Of a stretch of 31,305 nt of DNA, positions 11,285-27,245 are shown piece by piece. Below the pieces are notes generated by a model. The model was not told where the DNA came from. It searched no databases and was given only the letters and a program-made list of their open reading frames with translations. The position numbers were made by a program, and so were the translations under genes. Source of the stretch: a virus; the IMG/VR virus record IMGVR_UViG_3300025138_013593, positions 1 to 31,305 of that record; one strand, 5' to 3'. The stretch's first letter is position 1, and each line of letters opens with the position of its first letter.

Positions 11285-11742
11285 TCAGCCTTTCTCTGTC
11301 CGGTTCAACCTGTTCCAGGTGGCCACGGCGATGCCGTGCCAGCGAAGGAGTTCATCGAGCTCGAGCGCGACGAGTTCGGAGCGTTGCCAGTGGAGGATCG
11401 CGGCGATTTCCGCGATCATCCGTTCGACATTCAGCGGGCCGTCATCTCCTCGACCTGCTTCTTCACCGTCGGGCTCATAAAAAAACCGAAGATCGTGCCC
11501 CCGATTTCGGCGAAGTCCTCGGCCTCGAGCTGGGCGACCTCGCTGTCGATCAGCGCGGGTTCGCTGATGCGGGGGATGACACTGAGCAGCGTATCGATGT
11601 CGCTTTCGAGCAGCTTCTGCAGGCTGAGGCGGCGCAGGTCGCCGGCCTTGGGCTTGCGCAACACGAGGTCAGCGATGTCGGCCCCTTTGCGCTTGATCGG
11701 GTGGACCAGTTTGACGGTTGCGGTTTCGGGCGTGTCACTCAT
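11285..11742 (-). CDS. E': gpE+E' fusion by programmed -1 frameshift
   Basis: At the T7 slip site (11479-11485) a -1 shift moves ribosomes from E into an open frame that runs without stops to TGA 11285-11287. The product is about 152 aa: 88 from E and 64 from the new frame. The final 44 residues (from ATG 11419) match the P2 GpE' family: MIAEIAAILHWQRSELVALELDELLRWH. In P2 and many tailed phages the two products act as tail assembly chaperones for the tape measure. The slip heptamer is correctly phased in E (ggT-TTT-TTT). Confidence 0.85.
11431..11742 (-). CDS. E: Tail assembly protein E
   Basis: The unshifted product is 103 aa (MSDTPETATVKLVHPIKRKGADIADLVLRKP...) and matches the gpE tail assembly chaperone family, including the LRKPKAGDLRRLSLQKLLESD segment and an acidic middle. 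The start at ATG 11742 excludes an upstream in-frame extension that is low-complexity. It lies between the tail tube gene FII and T. A covarying hairpin lies just upstream in the leader. Confidence 0.9.
   Translation of the reverse strand: MSDTPETATVKLVHPIKRKGADIADLVLRKPKAGDLRRLSLQKLLESDIDTLLSVIPRISEPALIDSEVAQLEAEDFAEIGGTIFGFFMSPTVKKQVEEMTAR
11479..11485 (-). other. -1 frameshift slippery sequence (T7)
   Basis: On the coding strand, seven T residues are read as ggT-TTT-TTT-ATG. This lies 46 nt before the E stop codon and is followed in the -1 frame by an open frame leading to E'. Both position and phase equal the known P2 E/E' slip site. Confidence 0.8.
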
Positions 11743-11761: not shown

Positions 11762-11789
11762 CGTCCTATCGCTTCGCTGCTTGAGGACG
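11762..11789. repeat. Covarying hairpin repeat, FII-E junction
   Basis: One copy of the intergenic hairpin: plus strand CGTCCT...AGGACG arms enclosing ATC-GCTTCGC-TGCTTG. It lies between the FII stop (11838) and the E start (11742). The inner GC-TTC-GC forms a second small stem. Confidence 0.85.
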
Positions 11790-12360: not shown

Positions 12361-12441
12361 GCCCTACCGCGCTGCGCGCTGCTTAAGGGCGGGTTGTCCT
12401 ATCGCGTTTTCTTTCGTCCTATCGCTGAGCTGCTTGAGGAC
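12361..12441. repeat. Two covarying hairpins plus a half copy, FI-FII junction
   Basis: Copy one (12361-12390) has arms GCCCT/AGGGC and a longer inner stem. Copy two (12416-12441) has arms GTCCT/AGGAC with inner GC-TGA-GC. Between them, 12396-12406 repeats only the 5' half (GTCCTATCGCG). The GCCCT/AGGGC pair is a compensated change of the usual GTCCT/AGGAC arms. Confidence 0.85.
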
Positions 12442-23131: not shown

Positions 23132-23620
23132 CTAACGCGACCACGCCGGGTTGTCGTCGAACCATTTGAGCAGTTCTTCGGTCAGCGCGTCCATGTCTTC
23201 GCTGTCGAGGCCCAGGAGCGGGCGGGCCGGGAAATCACCTTCGACCCTCCGCCCTTCCGAATCCCGGCCAACGGTCATCCGACCGCCGCTGTGGTGCCGA
23301 GCGGCGATGGGATTGGCGAAATAGACCTTGGCACTATCGGGCGTGGCGTGGAATTTCAGATGGTCCGCCTTGTAGAGGTTGCGGAACATCAGCCCACTCT
23401 TGATCGAGCGCTTGCCCCTGCGGATCCGGCGCTTGCGTTTACGCGGGGCCATCTTGCCGCCATCGGGTTCGACATTGCGCTTGATCCGATCGCGGTTCCT
23501 GCGGCGCAGCTCGCGCGCGATCTTGCCCGCCACTTTCTTGCGCTTCGCCGGCGAGAGATCGGATAGCATCGCATCGAAATACTCACCGACAGCCTCCATG
23601 GCTTCCACGCCCTCGATCAT
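23132..23620 (-). CDS. S: Tail completion protein S
   Basis: The 162-aa protein matches the gpS/virion morphogenesis family: helical N-terminus (EYFDAMLSDLSPAKRKKVAGKIARELRRRN..RI), an Arg/Lys-rich centre, SGLMFRNL, then YFANPIAARHHSGG and FPARPLLGLDSEDMDAL. It is coupled to R (ATGA). It ends 49 bp from the convergent RHH/membrane cassette. Confidence 0.92.
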   Translation of the reverse strand: MIEGVEAMEAVGEYFDAMLSDLSPAKRKKVAGKIARELRRRNRDRIKRNVEPDGGKMAPRKRKRRIRRGKRSIKSGLMFRNLYKADHLKFHATPDSAKVYFANPIAARHHSGGRMTVGRDSEGRRVEGDFPARPLLGLDSEDMDALTEELLKWFDDNPAWSR

Positions 23621-24093
23621 GAAGCCAGGTCCTCGCCGCTGATCACGAGGCCGGACAGACCAACCGCATCACCGATGCCTTCGAAACTGTCATCGATCGC
23701 CGGTTCGGGCAGATATTCGAACCCGTCTTCGGTCCGGCGCACCGCTTCGCTGAGCTCCAGCGAGAGCTGCAGATCGATGCGTTCGTCATCGATGATGTCC
23801 GCCTGCAGTTCCACCGGACTGCCTTCATGCGACAGCAGGAGTTCGGGCTGATGGATCCGCAGCCAGTCGAGCACGAGCGCGAGCACGGTGTTGGCATCGC
23901 CCTTGAAGTCGAGCAGCACCGCCTCGAGCCGATAGGCCCATTCGAAACTGACGACAGCAGTCGAGGTGCCGGGCGCAGGACGCGCGCGGACGCGGCCATT
24001 CTCGACATAGACGGCGAGCCTGTCGCGCGCGCGGCCGTTGAATTCGGGAAAGGCAGCGGCGAGATGATCGCGGAGGAGTTGGGGCTTGCGCAT
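23617..24093 (-). CDS. R: Tail completion protein R
   Basis: The 158-aa product has the gpR pattern: MRKPQLLRDHLAAAFPEFNGRARDRLAVYVENGRVRA, FEWAYRLEAVLLDFKGDANTVLALVLDWLRIHQPELL and an acidic C-terminal half. It acts with S at the head-tail joint. The AGGA in the 3' arm of the hairpin repeat (24100-24125, minus strand) is 7 nt before its ATG and could be its ribosome-binding site. Confidence 0.93.
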   Translation of the reverse strand: MRKPQLLRDHLAAAFPEFNGRARDRLAVYVENGRVRARPAPGTSTAVVSFEWAYRLEAVLLDFKGDANTVLALVLDWLRIHQPELLLSHEGSPVELQADIIDDERIDLQLSLELSEAVRRTEDGFEYLPEPAIDDSFEGIGDAVGLSGLVISGEDLAS

Positions 24094-24099
24094 TTTTGT

Positions 24100-24125
24100 G
24101 TCCTACCACTTCGTTGCTTGAGGAC
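24100..24125. repeat. Covarying hairpin repeat, X-R junction
   Basis: Arms GTCCT/AGGAC. The inner stem reads AC-TTC-GT instead of GC-TTC-GC, a compensated G-C to A-T change. On the minus strand the 3' arm AGGA lies 7 nt before the R start. Confidence 0.85.
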
Positions 24126-24137
24126 CGGGGGACACAT

Positions 24138-24347
24138 TCAATCCCACAGCTGGACGATGTCGCGGGTTTCGGGTGCGGCGATCGCTACGTCCGGCAGGAC
24201 GACGCGCGTGCCGAGGGGAAGGACCGGACCCAGATCGGCAATGCCGGGATTGGCTGCGACCGCGGCTTCGACAATCCCGGCGGTGCGGCCCAGCTCGCGC
24301 CAGCAGATGAGGTCGAGCGTGTCGCCTTCGATCGAGAGGACGTTCAT
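24138..24347 (-). CDS. X: Tail protein X (LysM-like)
   Basis: The 69-aa protein has the gpX pattern: MNVLSIEGDTLDLICWRELGRTAGIVEAAVAANPGIADLGPVLPLGTRVVLPDV, a single LysM-like module with the G-D-T-L-D-L-I-C-W core. It is needed for tail completion in P2. Its ATG is 2 nt after the AGGACC end of a hairpin repeat. Confidence 0.94.
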   Translation of the reverse strand: MNVLSIEGDTLDLICWRELGRTAGIVEAAVAANPGIADLGPVLPLGTRVVLPDVAIAAPETRDIVQLWD

Positions 24348-24348
24348 G

Positions 24349-24446
24349 GTCCTACCGCTTCGCTGCTTGAGGAGAGCATTTCCGGCCCTACCGCTTGGCT
24401 GCTTGAGGACGGTTTTGCGCGTCCTACCGCTTCGCTGCTTGAGGAC
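24349..24446. repeat. Three tandem covarying hairpins, L-X junction
   Basis: Copies at 24349-24374 (GTCCT/AGGAG, last pair unmatched), 24385-24410 (GCCCT/AGGAC, inner GC-TTG-GC) and 24421-24446 (GTCCT/AGGAC, inner GC-TTC-GC). Spacers are 10 bp each. Confidence 0.85.
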
Positions 24447-24450
24447 GGGG

Positions 24451-24930
24451 TCATATCAGCTCGACCGATGTGCGGGTGACGCCGAGCATGTCGCGTATCG
24501 CGAGGGTGGCCAGGCGGCGCAGTTCGCCGGCCGCATCGCGGCGGGCCTCGTTGCGTTCCTGGCCTTCACCGGTGGCGGCGATATCGGAATGGGTTTCGGC
24601 GAGTTCGGCAGCTGCGGCATGGAAGACCGCGCGGCGGTAGAGCAGCTCGACAGCCGGTTCGCCGTCAATCTCCTCGCTAGCAACCGCACCGAGGGTGGCA
24701 GCGCCCGCCAGGACGTGGCCCGCCTTCCAGAGCCGGAGTTCGCCGCGGACCTGTAGCATCCCGCCACGAAGCGCGGCGCGAAGGCGCGCAGGATCGACTT
24801 CTTCAGGGATGCGCATCTCGGACTGGAAACCCGCGATCGACAGGCCCGGCCAGAAGGCATCGCCCGCGACGAGGTCGGCAGGATCCTCGAGGTCGGGTCC
24901 CGAGGGAGGAGAGGCTACGAAGCCGGTTAT
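24451..24930 (-). CDS. L: Head completion protein L, apparent ATA start
   Basis: The family-like reading frame runs 159 codons from 24930. Its N-terminal residues (TGFVASPPSGPD... GDAFWPGLSIAGFQSEMRI) fit gpL, which normally begins upstream of the GDxFWP motif. No ATG, GTG or TTG occurs in frame between the preceding TAG and residue 39. The codon in the start position is ATA (24928-24930), 5 nt after a perfect AGGAGG. The first ATG (24816) would give 121 aa lacking the conserved N-terminus. gpL closes the filled capsid. Either ATA is used or the start codon has been mutated. Confidence 0.82.
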   Translation of the reverse strand: MTGFVASPPSGPDLEDPADLVAGDAFWPGLSIAGFQSEMRIPEEVDPARLRAALRGGMLQVRGELRLWKAGHVLAGAATLGAVASEEIDGEPAVELLYRRAVFHAAAAELAETHSDIAATGEGQERNEARRDAAGELRRLATLAIRDMLGVTRTSVELI

Positions 24931-24935
24931 ATCAG

Positions 24936-24963
24936 CCTCCTATCGCTACGCTAGTTGAGGAGG
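24936..24963. repeat. Covarying hairpin repeat just before L
   Basis: Arms CCTCCT/AGGAGG, a compensated variant of GTCCT/AGGAC, with inner GC-TAC-GC. On the minus strand the 3' arm AGGAGG is the ribosome-binding site of L, so folding would hide it. A half copy (CCTCCTATCG) follows at 24971-24980. The rest of the gap to 25084 is GC-rich with no supported gene. Confidence 0.8.
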
Positions 24964-25084
24964 GCTTTTGCCTCCTATCGAAAGCCACGAATCCGGGGGT
25001 GAGGAAGCGCGCTGCGCGGTTCCGGGGCGAGCCCCGTTCGTGCATGTCTTCCGCCCCCGGGCGCCGTGGGGCAGGTTTTTGTCC

Positions 25085-25110
25085 GTCCTACCGCTTCGCT
25101 GCTTGAGGAC
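25085..25110. repeat. Covarying hairpin repeat after the 36-aa gene
   Basis: Consensus copy: arms GTCCT/AGGAC with inner GC-TTC-GC. It lies 11 bp downstream of the stop of the small membrane protein gene. Confidence 0.85.
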
Positions 25111-25121
25111 GGGCGTTTGGT

Positions 25122-25232
25122 TCAGGCCAGCTTGGTGCCGACCCAGATAAGTCCGCCGACGATCGCGGCGATCGCCAGCACGTATTTCAGACATCCGAAG
25201 AGAAGCTTATTCTCCATGCCGGGCACCGCCAT
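25122..25232 (-). CDS. Small membrane protein (36 aa) between M and L
   Basis: ATG 25232 overlaps the M stop (TGATG) and opens a 36-codon frame, MAVPGMENKLLFGCLKYVLAIAAIVGGLIWVGTKLA. It has one transmembrane helix (about residues 16-32) and a Lys at each end. P2 has no gene here. Overlap and clean membrane profile support translation. Function unknown. Confidence 0.6.
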   Translation of the reverse strand: MAVPGMENKLLFGCLKYVLAIAAIVGGLIWVGTKLA

Positions 25233-26014
25233 CAGGCTTCCCCATCGGAGAGCTTGCGGATTGTGTTCTCGACGCGTTCGATCGATTTCTTGACGCCGGC
25301 CTTGTCGTCGAAGGCGAGGGCGCGCTTGTAGGCTTCGAGCGCGGTCTGGAAGCCGCGCTTGCGGCCACCGGCCTGCGCGAGATCGGTGTCTTCGGCCCCG
25401 TCGGTCGCACGCTCGATCGCCATGCCGATGGCCTTGTGCAGCTTGGCACGGGCCTGATCGGGCATGTCGTGATCGGTGGTGAGATCGGCGATTTCGACCA
25501 GCGGGGCATAGTCGGCGATGTGGGCCTTGTCGGTCGACATGGCCTTGAGCGCGGTTTCGGCGAATTCCTCGGCCACGAGGCAGCCGGGCGTGCGGTCGAA
25601 ACGCTGCGGCAATTCCATGCCGTGGCGGAAGAAAATGCGGATGCGCGGCAGGGCACGTTCGTGATCCGCGCAGTCGATCGCCCAGACCATGGTTTCGACC
25701 AGTACGTCGTCCTGGTCGATCAGCTGGCCCTTGCCTTCGGCGGCCTGGGCGGCCTCGAGGACGCCGTCTACCCAGGGATCGTATTTGGGAAGCATCGCGG
25801 CCTTGGCCTCGATCTTCGACGCGACCGACTGCATGTTCTTGAGCACGCCGAGGTCCTCGCCGATTGCGGCACGCTGCAGTTCGTATTCGTTCGCGCGGGC
25901 CGGATCCCCGGAAGCGACAGGCTGGGCGCTGGTGCCGGGGCGCGCCGCCGCCTTGGCAGGCGTTGCCTTGGCGGCGAGTTTCCGGGCGAAGCTGCGCTGG
26001 GCGGGACTGGGCAT
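25232..26014 (-). CDS. M: Terminase small subunit M
   Basis: The 260-aa product resembles gpM: PSPAQRSFARKLAAKATP, YELQRAAIGEDLGVLKNMQSVASKIEAKAAMLPKYDPWVDGVLEA, DDVLVETMVWAIDCADHERAL and IRIFFRHGMELPQRFDRTPGCLVAEEFA. gpM is the small terminase/endonuclease subunit acting with P at cos. GAGGATC lies upstream of the ATG, downstream of three tandem hairpins. The C-terminal third (helical KKSIERVENTIRKLSDGEA) is variable. Confidence 0.93.
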   Translation of the reverse strand: MPSPAQRSFARKLAAKATPAKAAARPGTSAQPVASGDPARANEYELQRAAIGEDLGVLKNMQSVASKIEAKAAMLPKYDPWVDGVLEAAQAAEGKGQLIDQDDVLVETMVWAIDCADHERALPRIRIFFRHGMELPQRFDRTPGCLVAEEFAETALKAMSTDKAHIADYAPLVEIADLTTDHDMPDQARAKLHKAIGMAIERATDGAEDTDLAQAGGRKRGFQTALEAYKRALAFDDKAGVKKSIERVENTIRKLSDGEA

Positions 26015-26042
26015 TGGGGAGATCCTCTGTTGGGTCTTTTTC

Positions 26043-26136
26043 GTCCTACCGCTTCGCTGCTTCAGGACGTTTCGGTGTCCTATCGCTTCGCTGCTTCAGG
26101 ACGTTTCGATGTCCTATCGCTTCGCTGCTTCAGGAC
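26043..26136. repeat. Three tandem covarying hairpins, N-M junction
   Basis: Three copies (26043-26068, 26077-26102, 26111-26136) repeat every 34 bp with near-identical 8-bp spacers (GTTTCGGT, GTTTCGAT). All three have TTC rather than TTG before the AGGAC arm, showing recent local amplification. Confidence 0.9.
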
Positions 26137-26192
26137 GGTCTGGCCGGGTGATTGACCCGGCCAGGCTATTCGATGTTCAGCGAGCCGCTGCG

Positions 26193-27212
26193 TCAGGCTG
26201 CCGGTGCGGCGGTGATGTTCTCGATCACGCAGCAGTAATCGTGGTCCTCGATCACATAGGCTTCGTTGTCCGAGCGGTAATCGGTGACGCGATCGTATTC
26301 GGGTTCGTCCTTCACCAGGCGGCGCTGCTTGCCTTCCTGGTCGTAGATCGAGAGGTTGTCGAAGCGGGTGATCATGACCGTCCCGGCCGGGAAGAAGGGC
26401 ACGCGGGTGGCCGGATGGCCGCCGAGGCGCTTGGTGGACATGATGACATCGCGCGCGAGCTGGTTTTCCGGATCGTGCTGGGCGTTGATCAGCGGAAAGT
26501 ACTTGTCGTGCAGCAGGTCGCGGCTGACGATGGCGACCAGTTCGGTGTCTTCCACCGCCCAGGGCGCGAGCAGCTGGTTGGTCGCATCGTAGATCAGTGC
26601 GTCGAGGTTCTCGTAATCGCCGCCCGGACCATAGGTGACCTGGCCGCTGGTATCGACGATTTCGTCCATCACGCGTTCGGGCGCTTCGGTGCGCATTTTC
26701 TCGAGCCAACCGATGTTGACCGTTTCGCCGAGCGGATCGGCCGCGCGGTCGACCACGGGAGCGGCGCTTTTGCCGTTCATGCCGATGCGGATCTTGTCGA
26801 GCGAGATTGCGCGGACGATGTGATCGCGGATGCGTTCGTGGAAGTCGGGGTATTTGGCCCACATGTCGAGCTTGCCGTAGCTCAGGAAAGTGTCGAAGTT
26901 GGTCTGGAACAGTTCGTAGCCGTGCTTGTCCAGGCCGCTCGGATCCGTCGGCTCGCGGCGGTTGCCGCCCGCGGTGTCGGTGCGGCTGCCGATGGGGGAG
27001 GCGACCGAGAGGCCGAGCTTCTCGCCCTTCATTTCCGGCACGGTGACCATGTTGATGCGGCTGAGGAATTCGGACGATTCCTGCTGCTTGTCGATCAGCG
27101 ACTGCTGTGCGGTCGGCTCGACGTTGAATTTCACGGTCGCGTCGGACACGCCGTTGAGCTGGGCGGTGTTCTCGAGATACTCGTTGAAGAGCTCGCGGGT
27201 CTGGTTGCGCAT
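26193..27212 (-). CDS. N: Major capsid protein N
   Basis: The 339-aa protein matches the P2 gpN capsid family: MRNQTRELFNEYLENTAQLNGV, FLSRINMVTVPEMKGEKLGLSVASPIGSRTDT, LFQTNFDTFLSYGKLDMWAKYPDFHERIRDHIVRAISLDKIRIGMNG, and C-terminal LGGHPATRVPFFPAGTVMITRFDNLSIY. Its AGGA ribosome-binding site is the 3' arm of a hairpin copy, 8 nt before the ATG. It follows scaffold gene O. Confidence 0.96.
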   Translation of the reverse strand: MRNQTRELFNEYLENTAQLNGVSDATVKFNVEPTAQQSLIDKQQESSEFLSRINMVTVPEMKGEKLGLSVASPIGSRTDTAGGNRREPTDPSGLDKHGYELFQTNFDTFLSYGKLDMWAKYPDFHERIRDHIVRAISLDKIRIGMNGKSAAPVVDRAADPLGETVNIGWLEKMRTEAPERVMDEIVDTSGQVTYGPGGDYENLDALIYDATNQLLAPWAVEDTELVAIVSRDLLHDKYFPLINAQHDPENQLARDVIMSTKRLGGHPATRVPFFPAGTVMITRFDNLSIYDQEGKQRRLVKDEPEYDRVTDYRSDNEAYVIEDHDYCCVIENITAAPAA

Positions 27213-27219
27213 TCTATCA

Positions 27220-27245
27220 GTCCTAACGCTTCGCTGCTTGAGGAC
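27220..27245. repeat. Covarying hairpin repeat, O-N junction
   Basis: Arms GTCCT/AGGAC, inner GC-TTC-GC, with AAC instead of ACC or ATC after the first arm. On the minus strand the 3' arm AGGA lies 8 nt before the N start codon. Confidence 0.85.

Follow-up and report, generated by a model that had tools for sequence, protein, structure and literature searches.

The virus record IMGVR_UViG_3300025138_013593 (31,305 bases; hereafter the window) represents a P2-like phage, as judged by its PHROG matches. Its late genes all lie on the minus strand, in the order O, N, M, L, X, R and S, followed by the sheath, tube and other tail genes, and a short hairpin recurs among them, including upstream of N, R, L and X. 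We give a probability of roughly 0.68 to the reading that this hairpin belongs to a dispersed and mobile-like family of palindromic repeats, which has been co-opted as ribosome-binding site (RBS) at N, L and R, and at many genes elsewhere. The reading is built on the family itself, on covariation of its stem, on copy-number polymorphism between phages and on a peak in the spacing to start codons. In this interpretation, ribosomes would use the 3′ arm of the hairpin, its placement would reflect selection after insertion, and any dampening by the fold would be incidental, with no dedicated switch involved.

Anatomy and distribution of the repeat family

The anatomy of the element was derived from 383 pooled copies. 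It comprises a 5-bp stem, an unpaired C and then AAGYAGCGNAGCGRT, with nearly all positions conserved above 95%. The unit is 26 nt long, and combines a near-invariant apical core (AAGYA-GCGNAGC-GRT) with a stem that is free in sequence but complementary. The 3′ arm usually reads TAGGNN; right arms are mainly GGGC, GGAC, GGCC, GGCG or GCGC, and AGGA is one option of several. Tandem arrays are direct (head-to-tail), with a period of about 31-38 nt. Covariation was assessed in 104 matches, in the retrieval of which the arms past the closing T-A pair played no part. Among these, stem pairs 2, 3, 4 and 5 are formed in 88, 91, 93 and 88%, against 81, 48, 49 and 65% after right arms have been shuffled between copies; pairing falls to 47% at the next position outwards, and then to about one third.

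Within the core, GCGNAGC is able to form a GC-GNA-GC mini-hairpin. Its inner stem carries a double change from G-C to A-T in two copies, one of them the copy before R, and is extended to 4 bp in a further copy (Table 1). As DNA, d(GCGNAGC) forms a stable mini-hairpin, as in phage N4 promoters; the likeness does not imply a single-stranded DNA role for the element, the predicted DNA folding of which is of modest stability. A gene-context table, built on crude gene calls and used for orientation and flank composition only, places an A-rich stretch of about nine bases on the 3′ flank in the alphaproteobacterial and viral set.

The window holds 12 clear copies and one variant. Searched for with a tolerance of three mismatches, the core AAGCAGCGAAGCGNTAGGA gives 12 matches, every one on the minus (coding) strand, and a reversed control of this 19-nt pattern gives none in the window. 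The hairpins at N, R, L and X, with their 5-bp stem around TCAAGYAGCGNAGCGRTA, are four of these approximately 13 copies. The initial annotation of this DNA was incomplete in its set of hairpins, as further copies lie at 26136-26043 (three copies), 25110-25085, 24446-24385 (two), 12441-12416, 12390-12361 and 11788-11763. None of these lies at a start codon, and the majority of window copies lie away from any RBS; a separate Shine-Dalgarno (SD) sequence is located downstream of the hairpin for M, for the tail-tube gene and for the gene at 11742.

The element is not restricted to this phage. It is present in many virus contigs, including those of unrelated phages, and in more than 118 bacterial genome stretches. 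Alphaproteobacterial carriers include Erythrobacter and its relatives, Rhodobacteraceae, relatives of Caulobacter, Robiginitomaculum and Hyphomicrobiales; the actinobacterial carriers are Euzebyaceae and Nitriliruptorales. Its occurrence is patchy (8 of 240 alphaproteobacterial and 15 of 66 Nitriliruptoria-class genomes in the class samples), and copy number reaches 115 in a single genome. This genome, G339, has 115 exact core copies, and G116 has 49 copies in 1.7 Mb. Host copies lie between genes in either orientation, and the genes directly downstream are unrelated, including holC, phnI, thiC, rbfA, and phage tail and Mu-F-like genes. A regulon was therefore ruled out, and the profile, as read from sequence, is that of a dispersed repeat.

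Some copies lie within genes. They are found in or beside the 23S rRNA genes of plasmid operons in Rhodobacterales, in either orientation and in some cases antisense to the gene. In loci L216-L218 they are located at about base 168 and base 1325, or just upstream of the gene; these 23S rRNA copies probably sit in intervening sequences. In six Erythrobacteraceae-like loci (L106, L131, L149, L153, L154 and L214) the element is inserted in frame into pheS, where it encodes eight residues (ASSSEAVG) between FYFPD and RMLLRTHTSP; L149 carries three tandem units.

Copies differ between close relatives. Upstream of M, three phages with near-identical late genes carry three copies (the window), two (L343) and none (L342); the L hairpin is present in L343 and absent in L342. 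The element is missing from all of these junctions in P2-like relatives whose capsid identity is 61% or lower; in L344 and L345, the nearest of these relatives, N is directly preceded by an ordinary GAGGA. Among bacteria, holC of the closest relatives of a copy-bearing strain (L313-L320, Erythrobacter group) lacks the element and has an apparent start at ATC or ATT; in the copy-bearing strain, the element and an ATG stand in place of the relatives' RBS and ATC start.

Spacing to start codons

The distance from the stem end to ATG was tallied for copies followed within 15 nt by an ATG-started open reading frame (ORF), with homologous proteins merged into clusters. In a first set, ATG lies 6-7 nt past the stem in 17 of 42 gene clusters, compared with a uniform expectation of 5 (p=5e-6). 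A second set, mainly from the class of the Nitriliruptorales, was fetched afterwards to test this peak, and 12 of its 18 gene clusters have the same spacing (p=1e-7). On the opposite strand, the corresponding counts are 2 of 20 in set 1 and 1 of 9 in set 2. A common A-rich tail does not explain the peak, because the spacers of set 2 are not A-rich, and a stem-ATG spacer of 6-7 nt is too short for any other SD sequence. Distances in the window are 7 nt at N, 6 nt at R and 6 nt at L (to an ATA codon), which fit the peak, and 1 nt at X, which lies off it.

These data suggest that use of the arm as RBS extends, as a general trend, beyond the window. A single family of short dispersed palindromic repeats would spread, as single or tandem copies, among alphaproteobacteria, Nitriliruptoria and their phages, with rapid gain and loss of copies. 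Given that TAGGNN is the usual sequence of the 3′ arm, a copy near a gene could act as SD sequence, and would do so when it lies just upstream with a start codon 6-7 nt past the stem; N, L and R of the phage and many unrelated genes elsewhere may have recruited copies in this manner.

Starts of N, R, L and X, and predicted folding of the hairpins

On the minus strand, the start regions read GTCCTCAAGCAGCGAAGCGTTAGGAC tgataga ATG at N (ATG 27212), GTCCTCAAGCAACGAAGTGGTAGGAC acaaaa ATG at R (ATG 24093) and CTCCTCAAGCAGCGAAGCGGTAGGAC c ATG at X (ATG 24347), with AGGA of the 3′ arm 8, 7 and 2 nt before the ATG, respectively. At L (CTCCTCAACTAGCGTAGCGATAGGAG), a sixth pair extends the arms to CCTCCT and AGGAGG, 5 nt before ATA at 24930. 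All four spacings given by the initial annotation are exact, as is the match that it noted between CCTCCT and AGGAGG. Its proposal that the arm doubles as RBS is borne out by the SD position at N, R and L, and by the recurrence of this placement at unrelated genes in two phyla; it does not extend to X.

The start of L that the annotation had assumed must be the ATA, because the frame contains a TAG stop within the 3′ arm of the hairpin and the first ATG, GTG or TTG is an ATG at 24816. Translation from ATA 24930 gives an intact gpL, the phrog_71 match begins at residue 4 when L is translated from two codons upstream, and the ATA is conserved in the window, L342 and L343 despite changes in the surrounding bases. 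Gene L thus appears to start at ATA 24930-24928, a probable assignment, 5 nt past a perfect AGGAGG. The strong SD sequence of L is independent of the hairpin, since L342 keeps GATAGGAGGC TAAC ATA without the whole hairpin. Upstream of L, at 25020-24936 (minus strand), CTTCCT...AGGAGG forms a second hairpin with a longer loop, which precedes the L start in L342 and may represent a degenerate copy of the element.

Isolated hairpins, with the SD sequence inside, have predicted folding energies of -7.8 (N), -6.2 (R), -5.8 (X) and -4.0 kcal/mol (L), which omit non-canonical contacts of the conserved core, so that actual stability may exceed the computed values. In mRNA context, with 30-60 nt of flank, predicted stem pairing probabilities are 0.00-0.19 at the four genes, reaching up to 0.48 at N with 100 nt of flank, and the SD sequence is predicted to be partially occluded, largely through other pairings. 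The copies at 25110 and 11788, where there is no RBS, have stem pairing of 0.98-0.99.

These predictions weaken the idea of a dedicated translational switch, in which the SD sequences of N, L, R and X would stay hidden in the hairpin until it was opened or bound by a ribosome, a phage protein or a host factor recognising the conserved core, thereby setting the ratio of head and tail proteins. The combination of an invariant apical core and free variation in the stem is what a protein-recognised hairpin would have, placement before starts is sharp and orientation-specific in two phyla, and the isolated hairpins include the SD sequence at appreciable energies. However, most copies are away from RBSs, the downstream genes are unrelated, the L and M copies are absent in near-identical phages, the stem is weakly predicted in the mRNA, and copies occur in rRNA and pheS; such a switch is unlikely. 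The suggestion in the initial annotation that folding hides the site is only weakly predicted, and its proposal for the head-to-tail ratio is unsupported, as the element also precedes holC, phnI, thiC and rbfA, lies in 23S rRNA and in pheS, and is mostly found away from starts in phages.

The hairpins could instead be intercistronic RNA stabilisers or processing sites of the late operon, comparable to the repetitive extragenic palindrome (REP) hairpins of enteric bacteria, with the overlap with RBSs arising from short intergenic spaces. The location of copies at late-operon gene junctions, often in tandem, and the almost complete predicted folding of the 25110 and 11788 copies are consistent with this role. 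It would leave unexplained why the peak at 6-7 nt is confined to one strand, and host copies lie in either orientation, with some rRNA copies antisense; we consider it somewhat less probable still than a switch. Transcription terminators or attenuators are very improbable. Stable, G+C-containing hairpins do lie between genes, but there is no T-run past them, as there would be in an intrinsic terminator, and the 3′ flank is A-rich instead. The sole overlapping terminator-like match (25100-25115) belongs to the other strand; four such matches were found, as compared with 3.4 in shuffled sequence.

The coordinates of element copies and of the adjacent late genes are collected in Table 1. Between M and L lies an ORF of 36 amino acids (25232-25122, minus strand), which is conserved in L342 and L343, overlaps the stop codon of M and encodes one likely membrane helix.

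Table 1. Copies of the element and neighbouring late genes in the window.
Feature	Position	Strand	Basis and remarks
Element before N	27220..27245	-	Sequence and core match; AGGA in 3′ arm; ATG 7 nt past stem
Copy M1	26111..26136	-	Core match; no RBS
Copy M2	26077..26102	-	Core match; one array copy absent in L343, entire array absent in L342
Copy M3	26043..26068	-	Core match; M has its own SD sequence AGAGGA further downstream
Copy between 36-aa ORF and L	25085..25110	-	Core match; no RBS
Variant before L	24936..24963	-	Arms CCTCCT/AGGAGG, core AACTAGCGTAGCGAT; ATA 6 nt past 5-bp stem; absent in L342, present in L343
Copy X1	24421..24446	-	Core match
Copy X2	24385..24410	-	G to C change in core
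Copy X3	24349..24374	-	ATG of X one base past copy; AGGA 2 nt from ATG
Element before R	24100..24125	-	Inner stem G-C to A-T; ATG 6 nt past stem
Copy after tail sheath gene	12416..12441	-	Two core changes
Variant before tail tube gene	12361..12390	-	Inner stem lengthened to GCGC-GCA-GCGC; gene has its own SD sequence
Copy before gene at 11742	11763..11788	-	Core match; gene has its own SD sequence GAGAGG
Gene N, major capsid protein	26193..27212	-	phrog_70, E=1.2e-135
Gene M, terminase small subunit	25232..26014	-	phrog_74; ATG 26014
Gene L, head-tail adaptor	24451..24930	-	phrog_71; probable ATA start at 24930, kept in three phages; translation
Gene X, baseplate hub	24138..24347	-	phrog_46
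Gene R, tail terminator	23617..24093	-	phrog_65

Comparison with described repeats and significance

No Rfam family reached its gathering score in the window, and elsewhere in the region there was only one chance-level match (E=2). A literature search, outside which most subscription journals lay, found no description of the element, and the core string occurred only in two unrelated papers. The family could be matched to no described one, and belongs neither to the tagged REP families nor to the start-associated sequences (SAS) of mycobacteriophages.

The GTAG- and CGTC-tagged REP families carry GTAG or CGTC as a conserved tetranucleotide at one stem terminus (Di Nocera et al., 2013, PMC3733652). 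Like REPs, the element is a short dispersed palindrome, located mainly between genes, with complementary stems of variable sequence; it forms clusters, has some intragenic copies and is patchy by species. Unlike REPs, it carries neither tag at its stem base, and its stem ends vary; G/ATAG is confined to the position beside the apical core, with GATAG in about one quarter of copies. The 5-bp stem, the 16-nt conserved apical core, the direct head-to-tail arrays and the recurrent SD placement are further differences.

In cluster K mycobacteriophages, the 13-bp SAS GGGATAGGAGCCC lies immediately before start codons (Pope et al., 2011, PMC3203893). The SAS resemble the element as repeats with an SD-like core before many phage start codons, and some have inverted repeats nearby. 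However, the SAS are asymmetric and are reported almost exclusively at starts, whereas the element differs in sequence, has most of its copies elsewhere and is also carried by hosts. In contrast to the covarying stem of the element, the ESAS repeats of these phages offer no support for RNA pairing.

Two further systems share single features with it. Rickettsia palindromic elements (RPEs) are alphaproteobacterial palindromic repeats which likewise occur as in-frame insertions within genes, but they are much longer and unrelated in sequence, whereas the pheS insert of the element is only eight residues. The coat-protein hairpin of phage MS2, a translational operator, likewise covers the RBS of a phage gene, as the element does at N, R and L; unlike the operator, the element is dispersed genome-wide in hosts and is not known to bind a protein.

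Candidate mobilisers were sought in genomes with and without the element. Mobilisation by a REP-associated tyrosine transposase (RAYT), the type of enzyme associated with GTAG-tagged families, was rejected, since its Y1_Tnp domain was detected in none of 32 genomes, 24 of them element carriers, in a search that did detect the positive controls; this is a further difference from REPs. Reverse transcriptase showed no association with the element (2 of 10 element-bearing versus 4 of 8 element-free genomes), and a partner gene was likewise rejected, as recurring neighbours of the element proved to be orthologous loci only. The element-rich genomes G339 and G116 are the best places for finding the mobilising machinery.

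Several points weigh against co-option of a mobile repeat. A mobilising enzyme was not found when Y1_Tnp, reverse transcriptase and recurring neighbour genes were examined, and the presence and absence differences between relatives could reflect loss instead of gain. Some positions (holC and pheS) are kept across genera, and this conservation could mean function, not chance insertion. AGGA is no commoner in arms near starts than elsewhere (Fisher p=0.39), and of the 17 set-1 clusters with the 6-7 nt spacing, three have arms that read TAGCG and lack AGG; the spacing may therefore partly have another cause.

If co-option is nevertheless correct, the family would provide a case of a wandering palindromic repeat that has perhaps become the RBS of essential genes, a phage capsid gene among them. 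The near-identical phages with and without the hairpin before L constitute a natural test of the effect of a hairpin over an SD sequence. A more far-reaching proposal, to which we give little weight, is that of a portable structured RBS module, in which a conserved host factor would bind the invariant core and the element would supply both SD sequence and translational regulation in phages and two phyla. Were a protein found to bind the core, the element would represent an unrecognised translational control element common to phages and their hosts in two phyla.

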